Shown here piece by piece: positions 3,001-53,917 of a stretch of 64,000 bases of DNA. Source of the DNA: Planctopirus ephydatiae (GTDB lineage: Bacteria; Planctomycetota; Planctomycetia; Planctomycetales; Planctomycetaceae); NCBI RefSeq assembly GCF_007752345.1, contig NZ_CP036299.1:3435501-3499500 (forward strand), given 5' to 3'. The notes beneath the pieces were generated by a model. It saw only the letters and a program-made list of their open reading frames with translations. It did no database searches and was not told where the DNA came from. Made by a program: the position numbers and the translations under genes. The number at the start of each line of letters is the position of its first letter. The first letter of the stretch is position 1.

Positions 3001-3493
3001 AGTCATTACTTCAATTGCTCAACAGACCAACCTGCTCGCTCTGAACGCAACCATCGAAGCAGCCCGTGCAGGAGAAGCCGGCAAAGGCTTCGCTGTGGTG
3101 GCCAATGAAGTCAAAGAACTGGCGCGACAGACGGCCAAGGCAACAGAGGAAATCAGCCAGAAGATCAACGCCATTCAGAATGCAACGGGTGTTGCAATCA
3201 CTGCGATTGGTTCAATTGGTGAATCGATCCGGAAGATCAACGAGATCAGCACCACGATTGCCAGCGCGGTGGAAGAACAATCAGCGGCAACCAACGAAAT
3301 TTCCCGTAATGTCTCAGAAGCAGCCCGTGGAACAGCCGAAGTCTCTTCCAATATTGCCGGGGTTTCACAAGCTGCCGACGAAGGTGGCAAGGGAGCCGGG
3401 GATATTCTCACAGCGGCTGAAGGCCTGGCAATCGAATCGAATCGGCTCGATCAGGCCACGACTCAATTCCTCCAGAAATTGCGATCCAACTAA
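1..3493 (+). CDS. Soluble methyl-accepting chemotaxis protein with PAS and tandem GAF domains (5' partial)
   Basis: The reading frame is open from the first bases of the window, so the apparent GTG start at 113 is probably internal and the N-terminus lies upstream. Order seen: unassigned helical N-terminal part, low-complexity linker (about 310-520), PAS (about 590-930), two similar GAF domains (about 970-1400 and 1480-1930), two PAS domains (about 1970-2310 and 2320-2660), then the MCP signalling domain to the end. The signalling hairpin tip carries the classic [19 protein letters not shown] core near 3018-3075. No transmembrane segment is visible, so this is a cytoplasmic receptor sensing through PAS/GAF ligands. 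It precedes cheY-cheB-cheR and should feed a CheA/CheW complex outside the window. The two GAFs share the motifs GSYWA and AGVKSGV, suggesting internal duplication. Confidence 0.9.
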
Positions 3494-3501
3494 CAGGTGA
3501 C

Positions 3502-3556
3502 AACTGCCGGGGAACATTCTCGCTCAAACTCTGAGAGTGTTCTCTGGCGGTTTTGA
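3502..3556 (+). terminator. Intrinsic terminator after the chemoreceptor gene
   Basis: Arms 3502-3521 and 3533-3552 pair over 20 positions, all Watson-Crick or G-U, with an 11-nt loop. The 3' end of the stem runs into TTTT. It starts 8 nt after the chemoreceptor stop and separates that gene from cheY. Confidence 0.75.
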
Positions 3557-3653
3557 TTGACTTTGAAAAATTGCATACGTCGATGACCACGAGATTGAAA
3601 TTCAGGCTTCTCCAGAGAAACAGGATGCTTGCTGCCCTGAAAAGGTCTGCTCT

Positions 3654-4022
3654 ATGAAAACCTTGCTTCTAGTCGATGATTCGCGCGCCGTTCGTCTGGC
3701 AACCAAACGCATGGTGACCTCTTTGGGGGTTAACATTCTCGAGGCAGAAGATGGCAGTCAGGCCTGGGAACGTGTGCAGAGTCATCCAGAAATTGATGCC
3801 ATTCTGCTCGACTGGAATATGCCGGTGATGGATGGCATTACGTTCCTTCGTAAACTGCGCGAAGATAAGTCGCAGCCTCAACCAGCTGTCATCATGTGTA
3901 CGACCGAGAACGACCTGCCACGCATTCTCGAAGCGATGCAGGCGGGTGCTAACGAATACATTATGAAACCGTTCACGGAAGAAATCGTGCGCGAAAAACT
4001 TGCCGGAACAGGGATTCTATGA
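3654..4022 (+). CDS. cheY: CheY-like single-domain response regulator
   Basis: A 122-residue stand-alone receiver domain, the usual CheY length. The acidic pocket Asp8/Asp9, phospho-acceptor Asp53 (in LLDWNMP), Thr83 and Lys105 (in MKPF) are all present, so it should be phosphorylatable. It would carry the signal from a CheA kinase to the flagellar motor or another target. AAAAGG lies about 8 nt before the ATG. Its stop overlaps the cheB start in ATGA, so the two are translationally coupled. Being followed by cheB and cheR strongly supports chemotaxis rather than another two-component role. Confidence 0.9.
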   Translation: MKTLLLVDDSRAVRLATKRMVTSLGVNILEAEDGSQAWERVQSHPEIDAILLDWNMPVMDGITFLRKLREDKSQPQPAVIMCTTENDLPRILEAMQAGANEYIMKPFTEEIVREKLAGTGIL

Positions 4023-5176
4023 GTTTACGTCCAGTGAAAATTCTGGTCGTGGATGACTCCGCCGTGATCCGTGGCCTGATGGCCAAAGTCATTGAATCGA
4101 CCGAGGGTTTGCAGCTTGCTGGAACAGCGATGCATGGCGAAGCCGCCCTGGCATTTCTGAAACGCAATCCTGTAGACATTGTGGTCCTCGATGTCGAAAT
4201 GCCTGTGATGAATGGACTCGACGCCTTGCGTCAGATCCAGATTCAGTTTCCCCGCACACATGTGATCATGGCTAGTGCTCTCACGACGGCCGGGGCGAAA
4301 GTGACTGTTGAAGCATTGGCGCAAGGTGCTGCAGGCTGTGTTGCGAAACCTCAGGCAAAGTCGGCGTCGGATGCGATCCAGCAGGTCGGAGCCGAACTTG
4401 TACCACTCATCCGGGCTCTGACGAACAAACCTGAGGCAAACAGTCCGGATGCGGCGATCGATGCCGAGACCGAGATTCGTTCACACTCCGAATCCAACGT
4501 ATCCCGTACGAACATTGCGTATCATACTCCGTCGAAAACCGAGACGGCCACTCGATCAACCGGCAGTTCGGTACTACGCAGAATGCCTCGGCCCGTGCAG
4601 GCCATTGTGATTGGCACCAGCACAGGTGGCCCCAAAGCTCTGAGCCAGATCATGTCGAGCATTGATGACACGATCTGGCAACCCATACTGATCGTTCAGC
4701 ACATGCCGGCGGCATTTACACCGATGCTGGCCAAGCATCTGGGAAGTGATTCCCGCAGAGTATGTGTCGAAGCTCAGACGGGCATGCCTATTCTCCCCAG
4801 GCAAATTTATGTAGCTCCTGGTGATTTTCATCTGGAAGTTGTTCGCAAAGGTGCGGATATCGTTGCCCAACTTCATCAGGCAGCACCGGAACATTATTGT
4901 CGCCCATCGGTGAATCCGCTCTTTCGGACAGCAGCCGATGTCTGGGGAAAACACCTGGCAGCAGTCATGTTAACCGGTATGGGTGATGACGGAATTGAAG
5001 GGACACAGGCCGTCCATCAGGCGGGTGGTTACATATTGGCACAGGATGCTGTCTCGAGTGTGGTTTGGGGAATGCCGGGAGCTGTCGTGAAAGCAGGCCT
5101 TCACGATGAGATGCTCTCGCTGTCCGAGATTGCAGGTCGTCTCCGGCAGATTGCATTGTGGAAAGGGGCAGCATGA
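4019..5176 (+). CDS. cheB: Chemotaxis response regulator protein-glutamate methylesterase CheB
   Basis: A 385-residue protein with an N-terminal receiver (Asp12/13, phospho-acceptor Asp58 in VLDVEMP), a variable linker around residues 125-185, and a C-terminal methylesterase domain. The catalytic triad can be placed at Ser201 (GTSTGG), His228 (QHMP) and Asp324 (GMGDDG). CheB demethylates or deamidates glutamates on chemoreceptors, opposing CheR during adaptation. It overlaps cheY by 4 bp upstream and cheR by 4 bp downstream, so the three genes form one tightly coupled operon. The linker is longer than in the enteric protein. Confidence 0.95.
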   Translation: MSLRPVKILVVDDSAVIRGLMAKVIESTEGLQLAGTAMHGEAALAFLKRNPVDIVVLDVEMPVMNGLDALRQIQIQFPRTHVIMASALTTAGAKVTVEALAQGAAGCVAKPQAKSASDAIQQVGAELVPLIRALTNKPEANSPDAAIDAETEIRSHSESNVSRTNIAYHTPSKTETATRSTGSSVLRRMPRPVQAIVIGTSTGGPKALSQIMSSIDDTIWQPILIVQHMPAAFTPMLAKHLGSDSRRVCVEAQTGMPILPRQIYVAPGDFHLEVVRKGADIVAQLHQAAPEHYCRPSVNPLFRTAADVWGKHLAAVMLTGMGDDGIEGTQAVHQAGGYILAQDAVSSVVWGMPGAVVKAGLHDEMLSLSEIAGRLRQIALWKGAA

Positions 5177-6009
5177 CCATTGATTCCAACGACTATGATT
5201 TCCTATCGGCTCTGGTCGCAAGACGATCAGGTTTAGCCCTGGGAAGCGGAAAAGAATATCTCCTCGAAGCTCGTCTCATTCCCATTGCCAATTCGTTGGG
5301 TATGCCCAGCCTCGTTGAACTGGTTCGTCATCTCAGAATTCGCCGGGATGAAAATCTCGAGGCCACCATCACGGAAGCGATGACGACGAATGAGACATTA
5401 TTCTTTCGAGATAAGACACCTTTTGATGAACTCAAAGAACGGATTCTTCCGGAGTTGATTGCGAATCGGCAAACCAGCCGCAGGCTGCGGATCTGGTCCG
5501 CGGCAGCTTCCACTGGCCAGGAAGCTTATTCGCTCCTGATGACGATTCGCGAGTCCTTTCCACAATTGTCGACATGGCGTATCGAAGTCATTGGAACCGA
5601 TATCAGCCAGCAAGCGTTGTCTAAAGCCAGGCAGGGAACCTACTCGCAGTTCGAAGTTCAGCGAGGTCTGCCCATTCAACTGCTGGTCAAGTATTTCCAG
5701 CAGGTACCAGAAGGTTGGCAGATTTCCCAAGATCTGCGAAATGCCGTCACCTTCAAGCCACTCAACCTGCTGGAGAATCTCTCTTCGCTGGGTGAATTTG
5801 ACATTATCTTCTGCCGCAATGTTCTCATCTATTTTGAACAAGCCAATAAGACCACCATTCTCGACCGTATGGAACGACAACTCCGGCCGGATGGTTACCT
5901 GGTGCTTGGTGCTGCAGAGACTGTCCTGGGTGTGACGAATCGATTTCAGAGAGTTCGAAGCTGTAAATCTGCCGTGTATGCACCTTCCAGACAGTTTCAG
6001 ACCGTTTAA
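5173..6009 (+). CDS. cheR: Chemotaxis protein methyltransferase CheR
   Basis: A 278-residue SAM-dependent methyltransferase that methylates receptor glutamates. The motif SAAASTGQEAYS matches the CheR SAM-binding loop, and CRNVLIYF is the conserved C-terminal-domain motif. A GTG at 5158 is in frame, but AAGGGG at 5163-5168 sits just before the ATG at 5173, and that ATG forms an ATGA overlap with the cheB stop, so 5173 is preferred. Third gene of the cheYBR operon. No CheR-type TPR extension is present. Confidence 0.95.
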   Translation: MTIDSNDYDFLSALVARRSGLALGSGKEYLLEARLIPIANSLGMPSLVELVRHLRIRRDENLEATITEAMTTNETLFFRDKTPFDELKERILPELIANRQTSRRLRIWSAAASTGQEAYSLLMTIRESFPQLSTWRIEVIGTDISQQALSKARQGTYSQFEVQRGLPIQLLVKYFQQVPEGWQISQDLRNAVTFKPLNLLENLSSLGEFDIIFCRNVLIYFEQANKTTILDRMERQLRPDGYLVLGAAETVLGVTNRFQRVRSCKSAVYAPSRQFQTV

Positions 6010-6453
6010 TCGTCGTTCACATTGGTGAAACTCTCAGTGATTGCGGTGGAGTTTTCCCCACACATCTGGCAGATGATGTTCGCTGAACGTATTGCTTGCG
6101 GCCGGTGTATGAGGCAAGCGAGCAAGCGTGTCATCGGCTCGTTCGCCCGTTCTGAAGAAGCAGGAAATTGACTGAGTGACAGTTGATGCTGCCATCAATT
6201 CGAACACTTCGCTCGTTACTTCAAGAATGGAGAATTCACCACGAAGGTCGGGAAGGGCACTAAGGTGACGGTTTTCTCAATACGAAGTTAATGCCTGAGT
6301 CAGTCACCCGCGGCTTAATCCCGTAGTGGCGCTAAATTCTAATGTGCTCCCGATTCACTTTTTCGAGAAGTTTGCCATGCAAATATTTCACAAAGTCGGA
6401 TACTCTAATATGAGTTGTTTGTGATTATTCGTGGTTCAGTAAAAGGGTGATTC
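6010..6453. other. Intergenic region, 444 bp
   Basis: Between cheR and the next sensor gene. No convincing gene, RNA or strong hairpin was seen. The last bases (6441-6450, AAAAGGGTGA) are the ribosome binding site of the following GTG-started gene. Confidence 0.5.
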
Positions 6454-41080: not shown

Positions 41081-41161
41081 GTAGGGCACTTCTTCCAGCA
41101 ATTACCTCTTATGCCGCTGGCACACAGGTACCTCGAAGACGAGCAACCTGTGCCACCCTGC
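41081..41161. repeat. 81-bp dispersed palindromic repeat, copy A
   Basis: Same 81-bp element as 49030-49110 and 49867-49947. Ends GTAGGGCAC and GTGCCACCCTGC pair imperfectly, and inner arms GGCACACAGGT / ACCTGTGCC pair too. It marks the left edge of the array, 14 bp after queE. Confidence 0.8.
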
Positions 41162-41202
41162 GAACGGTGTATGGCATAACATCTCAGAGTTCCCCGCTGC
41201 AC

Positions 41203-41293
41203 GCCGAACATCACGGTTAACCGGGCCGCCGCCACAAGGCCTTATTTTCAAAATCCATACAATCGGCGGCGCCGGTTCACCGCTTTGTTATTT
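41203..41293 (-). repeat. attC site 1
   Basis: 91 bp. Outer 7-mers GCCGAAC and GTTATTT; inner arms GGTTAACCGGGCCGCC and GGCGGCGCCGGTTCACC pair; central TTCAAAAT. Last attC of the array, following the GNAT gene. Confidence 0.8.
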
Positions 41294-41316
41294 GCATTAC
41301 GTGCTATTGAGAAGAG

Positions 41317-41853
41317 TCACCAGTATACAGGATCGTTGAGTGCGTTGACACAAGTGCAGACACCCGACAGTGCTTCAATGGACTGTCCATTGAGCGATCG
41401 ACCAAGCCAGCCTTCTGGTTGTGAAAGCCGAAAGGGGGCTCTAGTTTCCGTGGGAGATATTTGTTGAAAACCTACCTTCCGATAAAACTCCGGATCTCCA
41501 TACGTTAGCACGAAATCCACCCCTCGTTGCGTTAGGTCATTCAATCCATGGCAGATCAAATCCTGGCCAATGCCTTGACGCTGTCGGTCACTACACACGG
41601 CAACGGGAGCAAGGATGAATACAATGCGATTGTTGTCGAATTCGAGCCGCGTGAAGAAGATTGACGCAACCACGCAATCGCCGTCGACGGCTACGTAGTT
41701 GAATAAGTCGAGATGGTCCGTTGTCTCAAAAAGGTCTGCGGCGAGTTTGCCAATCAACGCACCTTCGGCTTCGCCTTCGGAATCGGCGAACACGGACGTG
41801 AAGAGATGCACGATGGCGTTTGCCTCTTCCGCGTTGTGGGGCCTGAAATTCAA
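41317..41853 (-). CDS. GNAT family N-acetyltransferase (cassette gene)
   Basis: 178 residues from a TTG at 41853 with AGAGGGG upstream; the frame is open to 42006 but that part is attC sequence. The GNAT acetyl-CoA loop reads RQRQGIGQDLI, and the C-terminal YGDPEFYRKVGF motif is common in YhbS-like acetyltransferases. It would acetylate a small molecule or protein N-terminus; the substrate is unknown. The start lies 17 bp from the core of attC 2 and the stop 24 bp from the core of attC 1, typical of a cassette gene. Confidence 0.8.
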   Translation of the reverse strand: MNFRPHNAEEANAIVHLFTSVFADSEGEAEGALIGKLAADLFETTDHLDLFNYVAVDGDCVVASIFFTRLEFDNNRIVFILAPVAVCSDRQRQGIGQDLICHGLNDLTQRGVDFVLTYGDPEFYRKVGFQQISPTETRAPFRLSQPEGWLGRSLNGQSIEALSGVCTCVNALNDPVYW

Positions 41854-41869
41854 TCGTTTCCCCTCTTGC

Positions 41870-41960
41870 ACATAATGACTAAGGTAACCCGGCCGCGGCC
41901 AGAAACCTTTGATTTCAGATTCCGCCCGATTCGCCGCTCGGGTTGACTGCCTTGTTCGGC
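41870..41960 (-). repeat. attC site 2
   Basis: 91 bp. Outer 7-mers ACATAAT (the conserved AAC is AAT here) and GTTCGGC; inner arms GGTAACCCGGCCGCGG and CCGCTCGGGTTGACTGCC. Between the GNAT and esterase cassettes. Confidence 0.72.
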
Positions 41961-42002
41961 TACGAAGTACGCGCAAATGCGAAATCGCTGGTCGGGCCTT
42001 GC

Positions 42003-42923
42003 TCACTTCTTGCGATCGGCATGAGTGCCTTTGAGAAAATCCAGTAATGCTTGCTCAGGGATTCCGCGCTCTGCACCATGCCCTTCATGCTGGACTTTGT
42101 AATGGATCACGTCGCCGTCGAGATAGCTGAAAACCTCCAAGTTGCCGCTGACTCGGGATGGCTCCGTGATCCTTTTCCCCTCATGTCCCATGTGACGGGC
42201 CCAAACAAACGTCGACTCTTCGGCGGCAACAAACGCCAGTTTGCCGTCTTTGCCTGGAATGGCTCTTGAAGGTCCGCCCATGTATGGAACGAGATCGTCT
42301 TTCAGACCCGAGATATTCATCAGTCGCTTGCCCTTAACGGGAGTCGCCGCAACTGTGTAATTGTTGTCATCGCCCTTGGCCTTGAAGTCCTTACCGTCGT
42401 ACTGCATCACATTAAGAGGACTGACGGCGCTGATGTAGTTGCGAACGTGTGACAGGTCGCTTTCGATCATCAGTTGATTCACCAGGGCTGATCCGTTGGA
42501 CGAGCCCATGATCGTAAAGTTCTCTGGATCGACGTTGTCCGCTTTGGCCAGCTTCCCAACAATCGCTTCGATGAATTCGCGATCATCAGCTTTGGATCGC
42601 TCGGCAACAATGTTCCAACTCTCGCGATAGCCCTGCGGAAACACTGTGATGTACTGGGACGCGATGGTCTTGCGGTGTCGGCCGAATCCTCGCATGGCTT
42701 CCCGTGCGTGACCGCCATTACCGTGTAGGAAGATGAAAACCGGAAGCCGATTCTTCCCGGCGTGTTCGGGAACATGGACGTAATACGGACGCTGAAAAGC
42801 CGTCTCCTGCGACCACGACTGAGTAATGACGTACTCGCCCGTGGTGACGGGATCGGCAGCGACAGATCCGGTTGCAGCAACGACGACAAATAAAACAGCA
42901 ATCCAGAGAGAATGAAACTGCAT
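42003..42923 (-). CDS. Secreted alpha/beta hydrolase, PHB-depolymerase/feruloyl-esterase-like (cassette gene)
   Basis: 306 residues from the ATG at 42923 (AAGGAAA upstream). A signal peptide (hydrophobic about 5-20, ending SVAA) is followed by an LHGNGGH oxyanion loop, nucleophile elbow MGSSNGS, acidic LKDDLVPY and a C-terminal HEGHG. The arrangement is that of LpqC/PHB-depolymerase-like esterases acting on exported ester substrates; the exact substrate is unknown. Cassette between attC 2 and attC 3. Confidence 0.75.
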   Translation of the reverse strand: MQFHSLWIAVLFVVVAATGSVAADPVTTGEYVITQSWSQETAFQRPYYVHVPEHAGKNRLPVFIFLHGNGGHAREAMRGFGRHRKTIASQYITVFPQGYRESWNIVAERSKADDREFIEAIVGKLAKADNVDPENFTIMGSSNGSALVNQLMIESDLSHVRNYISAVSPLNVMQYDGKDFKAKGDDNNYTVAATPVKGKRLMNISGLKDDLVPYMGGPSRAIPGKDGKLAFVAAEESTFVWARHMGHEGKRITEPSRVSGNLEVFSYLDGDVIHYKVQHEGHGAERGIPEQALLDFLKGTHADRKK

Positions 42924-43000
42924 GTTATGGTTTCCTTGCATTCATTACGGATGTTCCTGCTGTACTTTATCGTCATTGCAGTCAGAACTCGCTCCCGGCC

Positions 43001-43069
43001 AGCGAACGTGCGAGTTAACCGGAGCAGTGGGGCATGACCCACTGCTCCTGGTTGAACGAATGGTTAGGC
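43001..43069 (-). repeat. attC site 3 (short form)
   Basis: 69 bp, shorter than its neighbours. Outer 7-mers AGCGAAC and GTTAGGC; an 11-bp perfect stem GGAGCAGTGGG / CCCACTGCTCC; an unpaired T at 43049 splits the right arm, as expected for an extrahelical base. Confidence 0.82.
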
Positions 43070-43076
43070 GTCTCAC

Positions 43077-43550
43077 TCATGGAACAAGCGTGCTTCCGCA
43101 CAGCTCAACCCAATTTCGCCCACGAAATCTCGCTCCCAACGTGTGTTCCTCGTCCCACGGAACTCGATAACAAACTTCCGTCGCAAGCGCTCTGTCGAGT
43201 TCGACCACTACAACGGCCTCAACTTCTGCCATCCCGAGTGCCTCGCTACCATTGTGCACTTGCGGGAATCCGCTCGCTTCGATTTCGCCTTGGCGGGCTG
43301 CTTCAGCATACGGTTCATAGTGCTCGAATAACTCATGCATAAGCTGTGCTTCGACGCTCTTAAGGTCTGGACCAAAATTCTCTGCATGTCTGAGCGCGGC
43401 ATGATCTGGCCCCTTTCGCGTGCCTCCGATAATGAGCGGCACAACCGATCCATTAGGAAGCGCCATCTCACCGCGCCAGCAACCTCTAACCCACCTGAAG
43501 ACGCCAAGTGTGGGATGTTTGAAATCTTCTGTCTCGAATAGGCCGAACAT
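43077..43550 (-). CDS. Hypothetical cassette protein (DUF6985-like)
   Basis: 157 residues from the ATG at 43550, with GGAAGGG about 9 nt upstream. Two short beta strands (GVFRWVRGCWRGEMALPNGSV) precede a helical part (VEAQLMHELFEHYEPYAEAA) and a C-terminal strand-rich part. The layout resembles DUF6985-type proteins, often seen beside toxins as possible immunity proteins, but the match is by eye and weak. No signal peptide. Stop 8 bp from the core of attC 3. Confidence 0.6.
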   Translation of the reverse strand: MFGLFETEDFKHPTLGVFRWVRGCWRGEMALPNGSVVPLIIGGTRKGPDHAALRHAENFGPDLKSVEAQLMHELFEHYEPYAEAARQGEIEASGFPQVHNGSEALGMAEVEAVVVVELDRALATEVCYRVPWDEEHTLGARFRGRNWVELCGSTLVP

Positions 43551-43573
43551 TCGCAACTACCCTTCCCAGAGAC

Positions 43574-43664
43574 GCCTAACGACAGGTGTCACCCGGCCGC
43601 CGCCAAGTAACTCTCAATTCTTCACACACCCACCCGAACGGCGGCTCGCTTGCCCTGGTTCGGC
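43574..43664 (-). repeat. attC site 4
   Basis: 91 bp. Outer 7-mers GCCTAAC (a full RYYYAAC match) and GTTCGGC; inner CACCCGGCCGCCG pairs with CGGCGGCTCGCTTG imperfectly. Confidence 0.78.
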
Positions 43665-43824
43665 GATATCCAGCGTACACGACAGGTTCAGGTCGGTCAT
43701 TCCGGCTGTTGGTGCAACCTAGTAACCTAAGCCGCAGATGCGATCCAACGCCCATCTACTCCAGTGCTCCAACGCCCATAACTTCTTGAACTTGTATACG
43801 CTCTTGAAGTTGGACCGCCCGGAG

Positions 43825-44183
43825 TCATCCTTTGTACACGGTGAATGTTTCGACGACCAGTTCACCCTTCTCCTGACGGATCGTCAGGTGCGTGTCCTTG
43901 AACTTGTGGTCCCACGAGGCGGTGCCGTACTTCATCTCGGTGGCACCCGCCCAGTCATTGACCAAGCGCAACGTGACCTTACCCTGATCGAGCCGATCTC
44001 CGCGAAGGCCGCCCACGCCTGAACTTTCGTCCACCACTTACCCTTATTGGCGATCTCCAGGCGGGTCAGGCCGCGGGTCTTCTCATCAATGTTGACCCAC
44101 ATGCCCGCAAAGTCGTCGTCTGCGGCAGTCAACGACAAGCCGAGAAGCAGAGCGATCACGGACAGCGATAGGACGCGCTTCAT
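43825..44183 (-). pseudogene. Frameshifted gene for a small secreted protein (cassette gene)
   Basis: A start at 44183 with GGAGG 8 nt upstream gives a signal peptide (MKRVLSLSVIALLLGLSLTA) and DDFAGMWVNIDEKTRGLTRLEI. The frame is lost near 43975, and the other frame then continues DQGKVTLRLVND...HLTIRQEKGELVVETFTVYK to a stop at 43825. Restoring one base gives about 119 residues with an AW-x(8)-DQG joint of the right length for a family I know as xW(V/K)N.D..TRGITR...HAWG.C.P.DC.WG. So a single-base deletion is likely, either a real mutation or a sequence error. Confidence 0.72.
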
Positions 44184-44214
44184 CAGAATACCTCCGGGGT
44201 CAGTTGACTCCGTC

Positions 44215-44303
44215 GCCGAACGATCCATCTCAGCAGCCCCGCCCAGGGCGCTGAACTCAAAAACAACCTATGAGGCGGGGTCTGCTCCAGCGCCTGGTTC
44301 GGC
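44215..44303 (-). repeat. attC site 5
   Basis: 89 bp. Outer 7-mers GCCGAAC and GTTCGGC are perfect complements; arms CAGCAGCCCCGCC and GGCGGGGTCTGCT pair with one extrahelical base; central CTCAAAAAC. Confidence 0.82.
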
Positions 44304-44334
44304 CTCTTGGCGAGTCGCTGACTGGTTGCGAGCG

Positions 44335-45558
44335 CTATTTGACCGGCTTCGTTGCGACAAGTGCCTCGGCGAACGCTTGGCCGATGGGTGCCATAATCTT
44401 GGCCGCGCCGAGGTAGTGATAGCCGCCGTTGGAGACTCCTTTCAAGCGTTTCCATTCGTTCGCCGTGAAGTTCTCCGACATCAGCTTCATCTTGTTCTCC
44501 CACGCATCCGCCTTCGGATTCTGCTTCATCTCCTCGGCGACCTTCGCGTCCACCTTCGGCCAGTAGTTCTCCATCCGCTCCTGGAGCTTTCCGAGTTCGT
44601 CGTCCCAGAACGGGGCCGTTTCGACTGCCACCACGTTGCCCTTGAACTCGTCGAGTGCCGCCGCCTTCCGCTGGGCTTCGCGGAAGTGCTTCATCTCCCC
44701 CTTGTCGCCCTTCAATCCGTCGATGCCCATGACGCCGATGACGAACGGCAGCTTCGGGGCGGCCAGGTCTTTCCGCACGTCGCGGATGAAGTGGCCGAGC
44801 AGTTCGGCGTACAGGTCGTATCCGCCGGGTTGGTTCTGCTTGTCGTAGGTCCAGCCGGAAACGAGGTCGTTGAACCCCTGGAACCAGACGAACCCGGCCA
44901 ACTCGTACCCCTGTTTCTCGTCGTACTCGGGCACAACTCGCTTAATGTCCTTGAGGACTTTCTTGGTATGTGCGATCATCTCGCGGTAGATCATGCCGGT
45001 GGCTCTTTCCCTTTCAGCCTTTTCCTTCTTGAGATCGTCGCTGCGGTCCTTGTACTGTTCGAGTTCGTAATCACTCCACACATAAGGCCCCGCACTGGGC
45101 GGGAGGAAGTCGGTGTGCAGGCTCCGCCCACCCCATGAAGTCTTGATGATCAGCACCGGCTCCTTGAGGTGTTTCTCCATCGTGAGGCCGAAGGTGAACT
45201 CGGGCCCGATGTTGTTCTCGCCCCCCGCCCCGAACCCCGCGGTCAGCTTACCCTTCTGCTCCTTCATGTCGGCATAGGCGTCGCCGAGGCAGCCGACGGA
45301 GGTAATCCACACCTTCTCGCACACCGTCGGCTTTCCGTCCTTATCCCGCATCTCCTTGAGCAGAGGTGCGGTCTTCGGGTCGTCGGCCATTTCGTCGAAG
45401 GTCGACACGTTCGCGTGCCCCTGCATGTTCGACTGCCCGGCCAGGATGAACACTTTCAGAGGCTTGCCCGCGGCCCACGCACTGCTCGCGGTCGCGACTA
45501 GCACGAAGAAACAGAAACCGACAGTTATTGCGCGAAACCGGCTTTGTAACGGAATCAT
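44335..45558 (-). CDS. Secreted sialate-O-acetylesterase-like SGNH hydrolase (cassette gene)
   Basis: 407 residues; GAGG lies 7 nt before the ATG. A signal peptide (hydrophobic about 11-28, ASSAWAA) is followed by FILAGQSNMQG (SGNH nucleophile Ser), GGEN/IGPEFTFG, WFQGFND (block III) and a C-terminal GYHYLG (catalytic His). This is the DUF303/sialate acetylesterase family abundant in planctomycetes, acting on acetylated glycans. It is unusually long for a cassette gene. The base composition is richer in G/C than its neighbours: about 60% in 44881-44940, which I counted. This suggests a different donor. Confidence 0.85.
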   Translation of the reverse strand: MIPLQSRFRAITVGFCFFVLVATASSAWAAGKPLKVFILAGQSNMQGHANVSTFDEMADDPKTAPLLKEMRDKDGKPTVCEKVWITSVGCLGDAYADMKEQKGKLTAGFGAGGENNIGPEFTFGLTMEKHLKEPVLIIKTSWGGRSLHTDFLPPSAGPYVWSDYELEQYKDRSDDLKKEKAERERATGMIYREMIAHTKKVLKDIKRVVPEYDEKQGYELAGFVWFQGFNDLVSGWTYDKQNQPGGYDLYAELLGHFIRDVRKDLAAPKLPFVIGVMGIDGLKGDKGEMKHFREAQRKAAALDEFKGNVVAVETAPFWDDELGKLQERMENYWPKVDAKVAEEMKQNPKADAWENKMKLMSENFTANEWKRLKGVSNGGYHYLGAAKIMAPIGQAFAEALVATKPVK

Positions 45559-45618
45559 ACTAGTACCTCGCGAAAGGTGTGTAGATCAACGGGACGCTTG
45601 GGCCGGTCGCCTGCTGCC

Positions 45619-46431
<813 letters not shown>

Positions 46432-46435
<4 letters not shown>

Positions 46436-46522
46436 AACGACTGCCGTAACCGGGCACGCGCCAGTTCGGCCACCATGTCAAAAACGCCGGATCGCGTGCT
46501 CCGGTTCACGGCTTTGTTCTGC
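46432..46522 (-). repeat. attC site 7
   Basis: 91 bp. Outer 7-mers GCATAAC and GTTCTGC; arms CCGTAACCGGGCACGCG and CGCGTGCTCCGGTTCACGG; central ATGTCAAAAACG. Confidence 0.88.
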
Positions 46523-46934
46523 TACTGTCCTCGTTTGACGCTTCATTGTACCCAAGAAGTTTGATACGAACATCTTCGCTGTCGTCCGGGCTGTATGCGT
46601 GGTAGTGGTTCATGTCAGGAGTTCGTTGGACCCAAATGCGGCCGCAGCGTTCGCATTCCATGGTTGCCAAGGTTAGATCGAATAGGCGCGACGTTAAGAC
46701 ATCGTGAATCATGTGTCCCGCCGAAATGTCCAGCGGGTAAATATCATTGAAGTGTTTTCGTCGCCATCCAGCAATGTCTCCTCTTTCGGCATGCTGGAGA
46801 TAGTCATCAATCGTGTCGTGTATCGCAGTGAAGAACGCCTCGCCACTCTTGTCGGAGAGCAACCATCCGGACACGTCGTTCGGGCACTGCACGTCGGAGA
46901 TCACGTTACCGCAGGAGCAGGCGAGTTTGCTCAT
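46506..46934 (-). CDS. Hypothetical zinc-ribbon-like cassette protein
   Basis: About 142 residues from the ATG at 46934; a TTG at 46949 is also possible. Two Cys pairs (CSCGNV and CERCGRIW) suggest a zinc ribbon joining the ends. The middle is helical (AFFTAIHDTIDDYLQHAERGD). No family is recognised. The last five or six codons run into attC 7, so the C-terminus SSRTKP is encoded by the recombination site; cassette exchange at this point would change the tail. Confidence 0.62.
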   Translation of the reverse strand: MSKLACSCGNVISDVQCPNDVSGWLLSDKSGEAFFTAIHDTIDDYLQHAERGDIAGWRRKHFNDIYPLDISAGHMIHDVLTSRLFDLTLATMECERCGRIWVQRTPDMNHYHAYSPDDSEDVRIKLLGYNEASNEDSSRTKP

Positions 46935-46968
46935 TTGCGACTTGGCCAAATTGAGTGAAAAATTTGTG

Positions 46969-47060
46969 GCAGAACGTCAGCCATTACCCGGCACGCGCGA
47001 GCAACGCTTCCATGTCAAAAACGGCCGATCGCGTGCTCGGCGTGCATGGCTTTGTTATCC
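46969..47060 (-). repeat. attC site 8
   Basis: 92 bp. Outer 7-mers GCAGAAC and GTTATCC; inner CGGCACGCGCGAGC and GATCGCGTGCTCGGCG; central ATGTCAAAAACGG, nearly the same as in attC 7. Confidence 0.85.
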
Positions 47061-47068
47061 AGTCTGCG

Positions 47069-47533
47069 TCATCGCTTCAGGGTAAATGATGATACCTTTG
47101 TGCTGACGTCCGCGCTGGTTTCAAATGAGGTTGGCCTTTCACCCTTGCCCTCGGCAAGAAAGAGCTTTTCATCAACGATCTTGAAAATACACTTAAGTGT
47201 TCTTGTCTTTCCGTCACGATCCTTCTGAATCATATCGAGCTCATACGGTTCGGCCTTACCGCGTACGGCAATCCGACACTCAAATTTCATACCGTCCACG
47301 CGAGAGACGATCATCTTGTCGCCCTTGACAGTCTGCTCCATTCCCTGAAATCGAGTAGGAAGGCCATCTCCTTGGCGTTTTTCCCCTTCCATTTCTATTG
47401 ATTCCAGAATCCATGAGCCCTCGAGCTTGTGGAGTAAGACGTTCTGATCTTGATCGTCCTGGGCAGAAGCAAATGAAAAACAAAGCAAGACAACGGCAAA
47501 TTGGGCAGCGACGGCAATGAAACGCGAGTACAT
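47069..47533 (-). CDS. TIGR03067-family secreted protein (cassette gene)
   Basis: 154 residues from the ATG at 47533 (GAGG upstream). A signal peptide (hydrophobic FAVVLLCFSFASA) is followed by LEGSWILESIEMEGEKR, GDKMIVSR, PYELDMI and LKCIFKI-type segments, the pattern of the planctomycete TIGR03067 family with a lipocalin-like fold. Function unknown. The stop lies 9 bp from the core of attC 8. Its presence suggests that the cassette came from a planctomycete gene. Confidence 0.75.
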   Translation of the reverse strand: MYSRFIAVAAQFAVVLLCFSFASAQDDQDQNVLLHKLEGSWILESIEMEGEKRQGDGLPTRFQGMEQTVKGDKMIVSRVDGMKFECRIAVRGKAEPYELDMIQKDRDGKTRTLKCIFKIVDEKLFLAEGKGERPTSFETSADVSTKVSSFTLKR

Positions 47534-47568
47534 AGGAACCTCTTTCAGGCATGAGAATTTTCGGTAAT

Positions 47569-47659
47569 GGATAACGTCACGCATCACCGCGGTCGCGGCG
47601 AGTGATGCTCCATTGGAAAAACCGCCGACCCGCAGCTTAGGTGCATGCGATCATTATCC
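47569..47659 (-). repeat. attC site 9
   Basis: 91 bp. Outer 7-mers GGATAAC and ATTATCC (the conserved GTT is ATT). The pairing between the inner arms is weaker than in attC 6-8. It holds the stop of the next cassette gene. Confidence 0.65.
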
Positions 47660-48118
47660 GACGTTTTGCATCCACGGCGGAGGATCACCTCCTGGCTCAC
47701 GTGGTGCAATGTTGAACATGCGAAATGTGCAGCCATTTGCACAGTATACCCCAGGATGAATCCATTGGTCAGCCTTGAGTTGTTCGTCGCCAATCAATTC
47801 GGCGTAAGCGACAATTTCAGCACGTGTCGTTCTTCCGGGCAACGCCCAGAAAAGTTCCCCTCCACAGTAATCACAATGCGTCTGATTGAAGTCTAGAGGA
47901 TCAAATGTCCTATCGCGATGCTCGATTAAGCCCAGTCGCTCTAGAACCGTGTAGGCGCCAATTAATCCGCGATACTTTATCGTGAGAAAATCACGTCGGT
48001 CAAATGCAGATGATAGCGACCCCAAATTGCTGTTGACCCATTCACGCAGCGGTGGAACAGCCGGTGGCTTCTTTACGGCATTCTCTAGGTAGATGAGACA
48101 TTCGTCGCGAGTCAACAT
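47654..48118 (-). CDS. Hypothetical cassette protein with Cys pairs
   Basis: 154 residues; GTAGGAG lies 9 nt before the ATG. A helical N-terminal half (RDECLIYLENAVKK; FLTIKYRGLIGAYTVLERLGLIEH) precedes a CDYCGGELFW zinc-ribbon-like pair and a second pair GVYCANGCTF. The C-terminus is Pro-rich. No family is recognised. The stop TAA is in the core of attC 9. Confidence 0.62.
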   Translation of the reverse strand: MLTRDECLIYLENAVKKPPAVPPLREWVNSNLGSLSSAFDRRDFLTIKYRGLIGAYTVLERLGLIEHRDRTFDPLDFNQTHCDYCGGELFWALPGRTTRAEIVAYAELIGDEQLKADQWIHPGVYCANGCTFRMFNIAPREPGGDPPPWMQNVG

Positions 48119-48144
48119 TCAGTCGGCTCCTACAGTCGCATTTC

Positions 48145-48235
48145 GGTTAACCGCTAAGTTAACCCGGTGGTGGCCCAGAACCGTTAAGTTCAAAATCGGC
48201 CCGAGCCGCCGCTCGGGTTGACCGCCCTGTCAGTT
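48145..48235 (-). repeat. attC site 10
   Basis: 91 bp by analogy with attC 2. Outer 7-mers GGTTAAC and GTCAGTT (GTT is GTC here); inner AAGTTAACCCGGTGGTGGCC and CCGCTCGGGTTGACCGCC; central GTTCAAAATCGG. Confidence 0.7.
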
Positions 48236-48239
48236 GCCT

Positions 48240-48800
48240 TCACTTCTTCCTCGAGAGAACAAAGTTCTCCCATGCGGCGCCCTCTTTCAAATGCTTCTGA
48301 TAAAACGCTTTGAGCTCCTCAGTCGTGGCAGTTATGAGAAAGTCACCGTTGGGGAAAATCTGGTGCGTGATTACCGTTGGATCCGCTTTGAGCGTCCGCA
48401 ATAGCCACTGACGATTCAGAGTCCTGACTTGTAGTCTTGGCTGCCACTCGTCAACGACAATCGTGTTGTACCTTGGCACTTGCTGATTATTGTCCGCAGA
48501 TCCCAGGGTCAGGTATTGACTGTCTTCAATTCGGGACAAGAACGCGCGGCCTTCACACAAGGGCTCTTTTTGGTGCTCAGCGTTGACAACAAACCGGTAC
48601 GAGTTGTCGTCGTCAGACCACTTGCTGACGTCGAAAGTGAGCTTATGACGGCCCTCTACCGTTGTTTCCCATGTACCAACCAGCAAAGGTTCGTACACGA
48701 CTTCGTCTGGCATATGAATCGTACGTGTATGCGGAACACCACATCCTGTCAAAAGCAACACCACGCACACAGGCCATAGCCAACGAGTTGGTTTCGACAT
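48240..48800 (-). CDS. Putative lipoprotein (cassette gene)
   Basis: 186 residues from the ATG at 48800, with AAGGAGG upstream. The lipobox LLLTGC at residues 15-20 marks a lipoprotein signal peptide. The mature part is beta-rich (HKLTFDVSKWSDDDNSYRFV; LQVRTLNRQWLLRTL), with a final helical segment; it recalls lipocalin-like cassette proteins. The frame is open further upstream into the 295-bp repeat, but those codons match the repeat, not the gene. Function unknown. Confidence 0.72.
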   Translation of the reverse strand: MSKPTRWLWPVCVVLLLTGCGVPHTRTIHMPDEVVYEPLLVGTWETTVEGRHKLTFDVSKWSDDDNSYRFVVNAEHQKEPLCEGRAFLSRIEDSQYLTLGSADNNQQVPRYNTIVVDEWQPRLQVRTLNRQWLLRTLKADPTVITHQIFPNGDFLITATTEELKAFYQKHLKEGAAWENFVLSRKK

Positions 48801-48815
48801 CACGCCTCCTTGTAA

Positions 48816-49110
48816 CGCAGTGTGGCCCAGTTTGACTGTACTCAGTCTACCTGGGTGGCAATGCCACAAGAGGTTAACGAGATTGAGATGAGCTTGCCAA
48901 AAGTTTTTCAATCCATTGGCAGCGTGATCGAGGCTGAAACTCTGTTTTCTTACGAGATATCAAAGCCAAAATAAGGCTCTGACAGAGCGGCAACTCATAC
49001 AACAACCCACCTGAGAACCCGAGGAACCTGCAGGGCACTTCTTCCAGCAAAAACCTCGTCTGCCACTGGCACACAGGTCGCTCGACGACGAGCCACCTGT
49101 GCCTCCCTGC
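48816..49110. repeat. 295-bp direct repeat, copy 1
   Basis: Aligns with 49654-49947 from CGCAGTGTGGCCCAG to CCCTGC, about 80% identical by eye. It starts with a palindrome (GTGTGGCCCAG / CTGGGTGGCA) and ends with the 81-bp palindromic element (49030-49110). It fills the gap between two cassette genes where an attC would be expected. Confidence 0.88.
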
Positions 49111-49128
49111 AGTTGGTTCGGTCATGGG

Positions 49129-49641
49129 CTATTGTTTGGAGTTCTGTCTTGCGCGGATTGAAACGAGGAAGTCGTTATAGCTACGAAAGTCCGAGAACGA
49201 GTCGCCTTGGTTTGCAATCGCCTCAGCGATCTCGTCGCGAACCGGCAAATACTTTTCGCGATATCGGAAACCGCTTTGACTTACTTTCGCGTATTCATTC
49301 CATAACTGATTGATCTTTTGCCTATTCGGATGCTCAGCCGCTTCCTCGATCAGATTGTCGATCGTTCGCAGTGTTGACAGGTTTGCATGAACCTGCGGAA
49401 TCGAGTTGCAATGAAGGTTATGCGTCCAGTATACAATTGAGGCCCATTCCAGTTCCGATACATTGGAAGGAGGCGACAATGCCAGCATGTCGATCCTTTC
49501 CAGTAGTCGTTCACAATATCGCGCGCGGTAAATCTGGAATCCTAGAGCACCGACGACCAAGCTGACGGCAGTTAGCAGCAATAAGCCTCCAATTTGCAGT
49601 AGCCGTCTTCGCAACACAGCAACTCCTGACCAAACGACCAA
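49129..49641 (-). CDS. Hypothetical membrane-anchored cassette protein
   Basis: About 170 residues with a TTG start near 49641 (GCGGGG upstream); no ATG is available near the start. The open frame runs back to 50070, but that part is the repeat and flanking DNA. One N-terminal transmembrane helix (IGGLLLLTAVSLVVGALGF) precedes a soluble helical domain (LEWASIVYWTHNLH; LSTLRTIDNLIEEAAEH). No family is recognised. It lies between the two 295-bp repeats. Confidence 0.55.
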   Translation of the reverse strand: MVVWSGVAVLRRRLLQIGGLLLLTAVSLVVGALGFQIYRARYCERLLERIDMLALSPPSNVSELEWASIVYWTHNLHCNSIPQVHANLSTLRTIDNLIEEAAEHPNRQKINQLWNEYAKVSQSGFRYREKYLPVRDEIAEAIANQGDSFSDFRSYNDFLVSIRARQNSKQ

Positions 49642-49653
49642 GCTCAGCAACCC

Positions 49654-49947
49654 CGCAGTGTGGCCCAGGTTGGCTGTACTCGGTCTAACTGGGTGGCAAT
49701 GCCACAAGAGGTTAACGAGATTGAGATGAGCTTGCCAAAAGTTTTCCATCCTTGGGCACGGTGATCGAGGATGGAACTTTGTTTTCTTACGGGATGTCCA
49801 AGCCAAAGTAGGGTACTGGCAAAGCCGAAACTCATGCAACAACCCACCTGAGATCCCGAGGAAATTGCAGGGCACTTCTTCCAGCAATAACCTCTTGTGC
49901 CGCTGGCACACAGGTCGCTCGAAGACGAGCAACCTGTGCCACCCTGC
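49654..49947. repeat. 295-bp direct repeat, copy 2
   Basis: 294 bp aligned with 48816-49110; its last 81 bp (49867-49947) also match copy A at 41081. The copies differ by scattered substitutions, so the duplication is not recent. Confidence 0.88.
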
Positions 49948-49961
49948 GAACGACCCCAAGT

Positions 49962-50111
49962 TCAGCGACCGCGTTGCTGCGCGCGTATAGCGTAGGCAAT
50001 CGGAACGAGCATGATGGTCAGCGAGCCAAACATTGGAAACAGCATGACGGCGGCAAATGTGAGCGGACAAAGGACAGCTAAGAGCACAACATTAAAACGT
50101 GAATCAGACAT
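49962..50111 (-). CDS. 49-residue hydrophobic membrane protein (cassette gene)
   Basis: A short frame with an ATG at 50111 and a TGA at 49962. It encodes MSDSRFNVVLLAVLCPLTFA followed by a second hydrophobic run (LTIMLVPIAYAI) and a basic tail RAQQRGR. The layout is a two-helix membrane hairpin. No ribosome binding site is obvious. Position and strand agree with the other cassette genes. It could be a holin-like or stress peptide, but no function is assigned. Confidence 0.5.
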   Translation of the reverse strand: MSDSRFNVVLLAVLCPLTFAAVMLFPMFGSLTIMLVPIAYAIRAQQRGR

Positions 50112-50163
50112 GGGGTTGGTCTTCGTTGGTTTTGATGGTGGAAACGCGCCGTGATCTTTGAAT

Positions 50164-50255
50164 GCGAACGCTTCGGATCAGGCGACGGCGAGCGGTAAGC
50201 GTCGATGAAACGACAGACGCCATACGAGCCGTTGCCTGCATCCGTTTTGTTCGCC
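50164..50255 (-). repeat. attC site 11 (divergent)
   Basis: 92 bp. Cores GCGAAC and GTTCGCC; arms GGATCAGGCGACGGC and GCCGTTGCCTGCATCC pair with one extrahelical base. It lacks the GTTAACC arm sequence of the other sites but matches in length and geometry. Confidence 0.65.
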
Positions 50256-50304
50256 CTTGCGGGTTGGGTGGACTGACTAACGCGGTGCTGAGAGACGTTG
50301 ACAA

Positions 50305-50544
50305 TCATGTGCTTTTGTTCCGTTCGTTCTCGGTGGTAGAACCAGTCGGCTTATGAGAAGGCTTCGTCTTAGAGGTGCAGCTATCCATGGCTATGCCGAT
50401 AGTCATAAAGAGACAGATGAAAATCGCCATCAATCCCATGTCACCTGATGCCGCTCCAATCGCTACTCCGATAGCCAAAAACGTTCCGGTATAAACGCCT
50501 GAAGATGATGTGCTGTTTTCTTTTGATTCTGGCGGAGCGCTCAT
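50305..50544 (-). CDS. Small membrane protein (cassette gene)
   Basis: 79 residues: a polar N-terminus (SAPPESKENSTSSS), two adjacent transmembrane segments (GTFLAIGVAIGAA, MGLMAIFICLFMTIGIAM), and a polar Lys/Ser/Thr tail. No family is recognised. Between attC 11 and attC 12, same strand as the array. Small two-helix proteins are frequent integron cargo; function unknown. Confidence 0.6.
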   Translation of the reverse strand: MSAPPESKENSTSSSGVYTGTFLAIGVAIGAASGDMGLMAIFICLFMTIGIAMDSCTSKTKPSHKPTGSTTENERNKST

Positions 50545-50576
50545 GGTGGTTTTCAGGCTAGGATGTCTGTCGTCGG

Positions 50577-50666
50577 GGCGAACGCTGGCGTTAACGCGGC
50601 GGGCGCGTTGAACTATGACTTCAGGACCGGCGTGATCGCCCGCTCGCGTTCAACGCTTGGTTCTGC
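50577..50666 (-). repeat. attC site 12
   Basis: 90 bp. Outer 7-mers GGCGAAC and GTTCTGC; strong arms GCGTTAACGCGGCGGGCGCG and CGCCCGCTCGCGTTCAACGC; central GACTTCAGGACC. Confidence 0.86.
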
Positions 50667-50675
50667 CTCAAATTG

Positions 50676-51674
50676 TCAAGAGAGCCATGTGTAGGAGTTG
50701 TCGGCAGATTCAGGCATCCGTCCAGAACAAATCATATTGAACAATAGAAGTGCATTATTGACGTTCTTTTTCGTCGACATGATGCCGTATATGAGAGCAA
50801 AAGGATTCACAGCAAACGATCCGTTTTCATTCACAACGGCAGTAACGCCAGCTTTTCCCTTTCTTCCGACGCTTAGCCATCTCCATCGAGCCGCATTGCA
50901 CAAGGCTGCTCCCCATAGTGCCCCCAGCTCTATTGAGAGCTGGTCACGATCCATTGAGCGTGTTCTATCGGCGCGAGTTTGTTCAATGAAGTCATGAATC
51001 GCTTTTGCCGTTTGCTCAGGTTTCGCCTTCGGTTTCAGCTTCAGGGTACTTTGAGCAATCGAAATCGCAGTTTGGATATCAGACTGAACGTCAAAAGGCA
51101 GTTCGACTCCATCCAGTTGTGATGATCTTTTTCGTCGGGTTTCGGTTTCAGGGTATTTAACTATCCATTGATCTTCGATCAATCGCAGATTGCGATGGAT
51201 ACGCTTTATCAACGGGTTGTCCAGAATTGTTCCCTCTTTTCCCATGAAGCGAACTAATACGCCAAAACGTTTCGAGTTGTAAGTGTGGATAAAGTCTCTT
51301 GCGGATCGTGCAAAAGCAGAGTGTTCCCACGACTCGGGCACATTTTTGATGGCAAGCGTTTCCTCGGTAAAGGGAATTCCCTCGGGTAAGCGAGCTCGCT
51401 TCTTCCTGGTACCGGAGAAGAATTCTTGTAAGCGTTCAAACTCTTTTCTTCCGTGAGGATGCTTGAACATATAGACATTTACGAGCGTTACGCCGTCCCA
51501 TGGTTCCTTTGTGTCGCCCCAAAAGGTAATTGATACTTCACTTGGAGAAAGGCACACAAATGTTTCGCTCAAAGGCAATGAACTAGCGTGACTCAATTGG
51601 CAACAGCCAATACTGAGATCGGCCTTGAGACGAATCCCGGCCATGTCGATCTGTTTTGAGCGTTCCGAGGGCAT
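50676..51674 (-). CDS. Large hypothetical cassette protein
   Basis: 332 residues, not recognised. The N-terminal half is mixed alpha/beta (PWDGVTLVNVYMFKHPHGRKEF; RFGVLVRFMGKEG), then a basic linker (ETRRKRSSQ), a helical segment (IQTAISIAQSTLKLKPKAKPEQTAKAIHDFIEQTRADR) and a C-terminal part with RWRWLSVGRKGKAGV that resembles a small beta domain. No signal peptide or membrane segment. The stop lies 10 bp from the core of attC 12 and the start 23 bp from that of attC 13. Confidence 0.6.
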   Translation of the reverse strand: MPSERSKQIDMAGIRLKADLSIGCCQLSHASSLPLSETFVCLSPSEVSITFWGDTKEPWDGVTLVNVYMFKHPHGRKEFERLQEFFSGTRKKRARLPEGIPFTEETLAIKNVPESWEHSAFARSARDFIHTYNSKRFGVLVRFMGKEGTILDNPLIKRIHRNLRLIEDQWIVKYPETETRRKRSSQLDGVELPFDVQSDIQTAISIAQSTLKLKPKAKPEQTAKAIHDFIEQTRADRTRSMDRDQLSIELGALWGAALCNAARWRWLSVGRKGKAGVTAVVNENGSFAVNPFALIYGIMSTKKNVNNALLLFNMICSGRMPESADNSYTWLS

Positions 51675-51696
51675 CGTAAGAATTGATCCTGTTGAG

Positions 51697-51788
51697 GCAG
51701 AACGATCGCGTTGACCGGGCCGCGGGAAGAAAGGTTTCCATGTCAGAGCCGCCCGATCCGCGGCTCCGCTTCCAACGCTTTGTTCGTC
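51697..51788 (-). repeat. attC site 13
   Basis: 92 bp. Outer 7-mers GCAGAAC and GTTCGTC; arms GCGTTGACCGGGCCGCGG and CCGCGGCTCCGCTTCCAACGC; central CATGTCAGAGCCG. Confidence 0.86.
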
Positions 51789-52251: not shown

Positions 52252-52327
52252 GACGAACAGGCATTCGACCGCCGAAGTACGGTAGAATATTGTTGCAGTT
52301 TTGCGGTGTGGCATGGACTTGTCAATT
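52252..52327 (-). repeat. Possible degenerate attC or array end
   Basis: GACGAAC at 52252-52258 resembles the left cores and is followed by CGACCGCC; a weak right partner GCGGTG...GTCAATT ends at 52327. The pairing is poor. It could be a decayed site, an attI remnant or chance. Confidence 0.25.
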
Positions 52328-52429
52328 TTGATGTGCCAGTAGGGCAGAGGCTCCCGCCTGCCTGTTCAACTACATTACACGTACGACACCAAATCACCCA
52401 CACACGTCATCTGACTCTAAACCAATCAG

Positions 52430-53770: not shown

Positions 53771-53795
53771 ACCAACTCCCAACTCCCAACTCCCA
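53771..53795. repeat. Short tandem repeat
   Basis: About three head-to-tail copies of a 7-mer (AACTCCC) in the intergenic DNA before the next plus-strand gene. Such tracts can vary in copy number. Confidence 0.6.
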
Positions 53796-53917
53796 ACATT
53801 CCATCAATTTCTGAATTGTCGTATTGTCCGATTCCCGAATTCCCGATAACTTCATCAACACAGTCGATTCGGAAACTGCTCTTCCGCCGTCGGCTTTGTT
53901 CAAGGGAAGCAGCCAAC

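Follow-up and report, generated by a model that had tools for sequence, protein, structure and literature searches.

The cassette array and the three genes between attC10 and attC11

The window analysed here is a 64,000-nt stretch (3435501–3499500) of a single-contig 5.21-Mb planctomycete genome, and coordinates below refer to the window unless stated otherwise. It contains an 11-kb cassette array on the reverse strand (41203–51788) with 13 attC sites, which were detected by AAC/GTT hairpin scanners and half-site HMMs and start at 41203, 41872 (HMM only), 43001, 43574, 44215, 45619, 46432, 46969, 47571 (weak), 48150 (weak), 50163, 50577, and 51697. The HMM-only site (41872–41960, halves of 8.6 and 12.8 bits) overlaps the start of the ORF at 41317–42006. 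A strict attC regular expression gave no matches because the attC cores of planctomycetes are degenerate. An intI gene beside the array, which would make it a complete integron, was not found: none of the six TIGR02249 matches in the genome exceeded the integron integrase cut-off (best score 80 bits versus 265 bits), and the array is thus an attC cluster without a detected integrase.

Three genes, all on the reverse strand, lie between attC10 (48150–48240) and attC11 (50163–50255). attC10 is degenerate and under the scanner threshold, its HMM halves scoring 3.7 and 5.1 bits; attC11 was recognised by both the scanner and the half-site HMM. The downstream gene (48240–48800) encodes a protein of 186 amino acids with a lipoprotein-like start, as judged by eye, and no Pfam family over cut-off. 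The middle gene (49129–49641) encodes up to 170 amino acids from an uncertain start, and the upstream small ORF (49962–50111, 49 amino acids) has no Pfam family at E 0.01. The three genes are those of the original prediction, which also stated that no attC separates them. In agreement with this, the attC scanner (score ≥27) found no complete site between 48240 and 50163, and the half-site HMM found between the genes only an isolated L'R' half of 4.3 bits (49631–49651). Promoters were not found by a scan of 48100–50300 (1.5 in shuffles), while four terminators were found in the same region (2.2 expected). A search of the window gave no Rfam family at the gathering score and no tRNA.

Both gaps among the three genes are filled by copies of one element, designated copy A (48816–49111) and copy B (49654–49948). 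The copies are in direct orientation and in register with a 1-nt indel, and the element is positioned 13–17 nt past the stop codons and approximately 12–15 nt ahead of the next gene. The 295-bp direct repeat was correctly recognised from the sequence, but its identity is 88% over 295 positions and not about 80%. A search with copy A matched copy B at E = 3.2e-103, far beyond chance. The palindromes noticed at the repeat ends are also real: the arms of copy B are inverted over 61 nt with 74% complementarity, and the ends fold as hairpins with z = −4.99 at 49889–49948 and z = −1.66 at 48816–48875, the latter being weak alone. A laxer early scanner reported a hairpin candidate at 49632–49744 that spans the left edge of copy B and is absent from the results of the later scanners. 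A third, truncated copy consisting of the right 80 bp of the element is located at one edge of the array on the reverse strand (41083–41162).

A dispersed family of paired hairpin ends

A search of the genome with copy A found 13 places, and the repeat is a dispersed family that is not confined to this locus. Ungapped alignment of 31 end regions defined a 60-nt unit, hereafter END, with the following layout: CGCAGGGTGGC comes first, followed by a hairpin of 12 bp in which a T·T mismatch is largely conserved, by a mini-hairpin (4 bp, loop of 3 nt), and finally by AAGAGGTT. The hairpin is covarying, as 92.1% of the cells are paired and two-sided changes occur in 7 of the 16 pairs, although these counts reflect few independent events because there are few END hairpin sequence types. 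The covariation score was 0.457, compared with 0.04–0.12 in slid structures. An END covariance model found at least 84 places in the 5.2-Mb genome at E ≤ 1, including at least 44 at E < 1e-7; these are lower bounds from the 150 of 1818 first-look candidates that were scored. At E ≤ 0.01, END matches were present in 29 of the 59 genomes searched, own genome included, and one exact type-1 END pattern had no match in viral contigs.

Four congeneric genomes yielded a set of 207 ENDs at ≥28 bits, which is complete only for the strong matches of the own genome. Neighbouring ENDs within 420 bp formed 65 +/− pairs, 3 −/+ pairs, and 4 same-strand pairs. The lengths of 61 of the +/− pairs were 141–225 bp (most 179–201 bp), and those of the other four were 295–296 bp. 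In copy A, the model designated R1 scored a plus-strand END at 48816–48875 (75.8 bits), a degenerate internal END at 48918–48977 (20.1 bits), and a minus-strand END at 49052–49111 (66.6 bits). The corresponding units of copy B are at 49654–49713 (71.8 bits), 49755–49814 (19.0 bits), and 49889–49948 (82.4 bits), and the truncated third copy retains an END at 41103–41162 (76.7 bits). The covariance model places the degenerate END approximately 102 nt inside both 295-bp copies, and the 295-bp form is the short element with an extra END.

An earlier, hand-picked set of 204 ENDs was used for the analysis of the base preceding the END, for the flank-repeat test, and for the comparison with genomic 60-mers, whereas the attC counts were redone on the 207-END set. 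The earlier set contains two ENDs below 28 bits, one of which (L187 3141) was chosen for touching attC, and five ENDs above 28 bits are omitted from it. The base preceding the END was G in 9% and a pyrimidine in 71% (n = 203).

ENDs bracket Y1 transposase genes

Three Y1_Tnp genes are present in the own genome with other repeats, and one of them (L035) lies between two ENDs that share the architecture but have other stems (25–30 bits). From 150 Y1 matches in 24 genomes, 87 loci were examined, of which 47 are the distinct loci among 52 sources (five being repeats) and 40 form a second batch. END matches at E ≤ 0.1 were found in 25 of these loci, within 500 bp in 20, and in nine loci the Y1 gene was bracketed by ENDs in the +Y1− arrangement. 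In contrast, no END was found in 16 loci of the same class that had been fetched for homologues of the middle gene. The NCBIfam cut-off for REP_Tyr_transpos (NF047646, 80 bits) was applied to two of the nine bracketed proteins, and both passed it (99.8 and 120.3 bits). The bracketing ENDs nearest to the window type belong to a 700-bp END-RAYT-END unit in another genome (G027, L163); their foot carries GGGTGGCCCCGGTTG and their tail CAAGAGGTT. None of the 87 Y1 loci examined had a RAYT accompanied by exactly the END hairpin types of the window. END-like units also occur in other arrangements in one genome (G039): at L282 they surround a Y1 gene in tandem runs with a period of approximately 62 bp, and at L076 their orientation alternates, the period being approximately 165 bp.

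The best reading of the 295-bp repeat is that of a REPIN-like or TIR-dimer element that is non-autonomous. With its two inverted ENDs, it resembles the elements that are mobilised in trans by RAYTs, which are Y1-type HUH transposases with folded single-stranded DNA as their substrate. A Y1 RAYT is a likelier mover than a DDE transposase, and ENDs of this type would then have been mobilised by a RAYT.

The family resembles REPINs (REP dimers) and their RAYTs in the dispersed inverted hairpin pairs, in the ends of like architecture on both sides of RAYT genes in relatives and of a Y1 gene in the own genome, and in the GTAG conserved in the hairpin strand of the ENDs used for the model (alignment columns 32–35 read CTAC, each at ≥90%). 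Unlike in REPINs, the GTAG is within the stem and not at its foot, and it is missing from those RAYT-bracketing ends whose sequences were compared. The unit is also longer (60 nt) with a second mini-hairpin, and the copy number is in the tens and not in the hundreds. RAYT genes have been described with REPs on either side or, in TIRtrons, with long TIRs, and so have TIR dimers and REP dimers inserted within palindromes (PMC3733652). A TIRtron has a RAYT-like gene (TIRYT) between long, partly self-complementary inverted repeats that are also dispersed as dimers (PMC3733652). The END architecture likewise combines bracketing at 9 of 87 loci with dispersed dimers, the exact window hairpin types not being among the bracketing ends. 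R. baltica is a planctomycete. It is listed among the hosts rich in TIRtron-type genes and repeats (PMC3733652). There is no literal match to the published GGGGWSAS motif, as the outer motif of the END reads GGGTGGC, and nesting in attC is not part of the TIRtron description in the available text of that paper (PMC3733652).

The middle gene and the remnants of its attC sites

Matches to the middle gene were found in 17 of 397 genomes, own genome included, and the relatives come from Planctomycetaceae, Pirellula, and Planctomyces records. At 6 of the 16 other homologue loci (L242, L243, L248, L251, L253, and L256) attC was detected by the scanner, with attC close on both sides of the homologue at L243 and L253, and at L249 it was detected by strong HMM halves only. 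The other nine loci are free of attC by the scanner and by strong HMM halves, L244 having a single 6-bit half. No END was found at the 16 loci, nor any of ≥14 bits with three further homologues, counted as three and not four as L306 and L241 are the same DNA.

The borders of the middle gene are given by its copy in Pirellula (L305, 79% identical). The alignment runs from GTTYGGTC before the gene to GACCGAAC after the gene and fades at both. These are complementary R' and R'' cores, i.e. cassette delimiters. In the window, the R'' core GACCGAAC is located at 49116–49123 on the reverse strand, where the Pirellula homology stops, and the edge of copy A is 4 nt further. The homology begins at the 5' border GTTTGGTC (49628–49635, reverse strand, cut G^TT). 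The L'R' half of the attC at copy B occupies 49633–49653 on the same strand; specifically, GGGTTGCTGAGCTTGGTC in front of the middle gene is the half recognised by the HMM, and it abuts copy B. On the copy A side, R'' and 4 nt of the attC are left, and no L'R' half was seen beyond copy A. Another motif in the copy A flank, AACAATAG, was considered as R'' and rejected, since the Pirellula alignment gives GACCGAAC.

With an R'' core 4 nt from copy A and an L'R' half at copy B, each element occupies the place of an attC body. The original wording, that the repeat takes the place of attC, is better put as an element sitting inside attC. A composite cassette was one of the possibilities raised from the sequence, and it is supported by the borders that the middle gene has in common with the Pirellula homologue and by the attC at the six homologue loci. 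By this alignment, the middle gene is a former single-gene cassette. A true empty site, i.e. an intact copy of these very attC, was not found in a close relative.

ENDs inside attC at other loci

At least four other ENDs of the genus are also found inside attC halves. On contig 376 of a congeneric genome (G002), a gene, an R''L'' half, a 295-bp element, GTTAGGC, and the next gene follow each other, as judged by eye. An END lies inside an R''L'' half at 757, 1234, and 4161 kb in another congener (G001) and at 1672 kb in the own genome (G000, 3.6 bits), and in three of these four cases it is 20–22 nt from the AAC. A second small cluster of attC candidates was seen in the own genome (L113, G000 1668000–1680000, locus positions 3124–6182). 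It contains two END units, and an attC half encloses one of the two.

R''L'' halves of ≥10 bits were present at 4 of 205 END flanks versus 0 of 4100 shuffles, with the END inside the half-site in three cases and beside it in one (L234). When 60-mers drawn from the genomic DNA of these attC-rich loci were taken as the reference, the hand-picked 204-END set showed a modest excess (4/203 versus 11/4000). Two other REP families of the same genomes served as a further control (60 loci from 30/58 and 30/39 places, both sides of each). At 3 bits, 13 of 205 END flanks versus 2 of 120 control sides had a match (one-sided Fisher p = 0.042), some of the 13 being beside attC and not inside (window 41103, L234) and some being weak matches. 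The counts were 8 versus 1 at 5 bits (p = 0.096) and 6 versus 0 at 8 bits (p = 0.061). The earlier, biased END set had given 14/203 with p values of 0.028, 0.063, and 0.060. Most ENDs are not in attC, and tolerance alone could explain part of the excess, as a large share of an array's non-coding DNA consists of attC.

We tentatively propose, while regarding it as doubtful, that RAYT-moved hairpin elements prefer the folded attC hairpin as a landing site. They would then join IS1111-attC elements and group II introns as a third type of attC invader, and by knocking out attC they would make fixed multi-gene cassettes out of single ones and would mark array edges. If RAYT elements favour attC, two systems of folded single-strand DNA, the integron and the RAYT, would meet at one substrate. 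TnpAREP acts on folded single strands and has been likened to IntI/attC (PMC8266576). IS1111 elements that target attC or REP are on record (cited in PMC11187229), and both IS1111-attC (PMC11187229) and group IIC-attC introns (PMC7923331) are, like the present element, mobile elements lodging in attC. They differ in being autonomous and in using other enzymes. IS1111-attC elements target one attC end (PMC11187229), whereas here a non-coding element of 180–295 bp lies within the attC hairpin. A literature search of titles and abstract openings found no paper that places REP or RAYT elements in attC, and on that basis alone REP/RAYT-type elements in attC are unreported.

Origin of the three-gene unit

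In the account that we consider likely, the 295-bp repeat belongs to the non-autonomous, hairpin-ended elements of the RAYT-moved kind, and two copies of it split two attC and turned three former cassettes into one composite. The two copies would have landed inside two attC, and the splitting would be due to insertion and not to recombination between elements. Two sites were probably lost when the elements inserted into attC, which left a composite cassette of three genes. As each copy would have split its attC, the three former cassettes would now be one composite between attC10 and attC11; the two outer genes may also have been single cassettes, and the composite would be expected to move as one unit.

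Alternatively, the 295-bp form could be an old resident of the array that was spread by cassette shuffling or by homologous recombination between elements, the genes between the copies having been gained by recombination and not enclosed by two transpositions. In the four congeneric genomes, all four 295-bp pairs are within 1.5 kb of attC versus 5 of the 61 other pairs, a contrast to be read with two reservations: the four are not independent, two being in one array and one in its syntenic partner, and attC near other pairs may be missed as 25 of the 65 pairs have less than 1400 bp of DNA on a side. The syntenic array in the congener G001 is short, with one attC nearby, and its 295-bp element lies between two genes other than the window's neighbours. 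At a second locus, G001 has element-gene-element (L198 5998–6933) where the own genome has a single orthologous element (L108 5342–5542) with the same right border. This comparison indicates that the element copy number varies between species, and it is not a clean empty site. Both arrangements would suit an old resident. Against it, the outer flanks of copy A show no relationship to those of copy B, as judged by eye, and each copy is at a different part of attC. On balance, we regard an old resident spread by recombination as a possible but unlikely origin.

The original prediction also raised a MITE-like element that jumped in twice. Its dispersed, non-autonomous nature and inverted ends agree with that proposal, but the mover is likely a Y1 RAYT and not a DDE transposase. 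If the repeat were a MITE derived from a classical DDE insertion sequence, with inverted repeats of 60 bp, this would account for the inverted ends, the few fixed lengths (most 179–201 bp, and 295 bp), and the location inside gaps. The ends, however, are covarying hairpins that also bracket Y1 genes, and the target duplications that had been looked for at the element ends were not a general feature of the 62 elements whose flanks were compared in the hand-picked 204-END set (median direct score 10, equal to the inverted score of 10). The sole exception is an imperfect direct repeat in the flanks of copy B (18 matches in 22 columns), which is the best among the 62 elements and outside what simple insertion predicts. 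The absence of target duplication and the Y1 link make a DDE MITE improbable.

The remaining proposal, a variant recombination site used by an integron integrase instead of attC, fits the position of the element where attC is expected, between the stop codons and the next gene, and its folding into hairpins, but it is very improbable and was rejected: the copies are dispersed through the chromosome, with no attC within 1.5 kb of 56 of the 61 non-295-bp pairs in the DNA examined, the ends have no paired R''/R' cores (by eye) and are linked to Y1/RAYT genes, neither the attC scanner nor the half-site HMM recognises the element, and no integrase exceeds the cut-off in the genome.

To our knowledge, the origin of multi-gene (composite) cassettes and the death of attC in arrays that lack an integrase are poorly documented. 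In the composite described here, the middle gene is flanked on either side by a former cassette border, and a transposase-type element is present at each border. Cassette finders that use attC only would score such a unit as one long cassette.

Other repeats in and around the arrays

Three REP-like families, namely END, GAGCCGGAAGCGTCAGCGACGGG, and GTAGGGTGGGTTAAGG, occur in the same islands at 427–435 kb and 1223–1241 kb of G001:C1 and at approximately 2171–2173 kb of the own genome (G000). In G001 these islands also contain attC arrays, and a Y1 gene is present at 434 kb. An 84-nt sequence (52256–52339), situated where the array of the window ends on its far side, recurs in G001, G002, and G003 with up to 98% identity. 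Several of its copies are in or near cassette arrays, some copies are approximately 130 bp from an END, and its fold is not attC-like. Just beyond the array, the 7-bp unit CCAACTC is repeated in tandem in 3.7 perfect copies (53772–53797).
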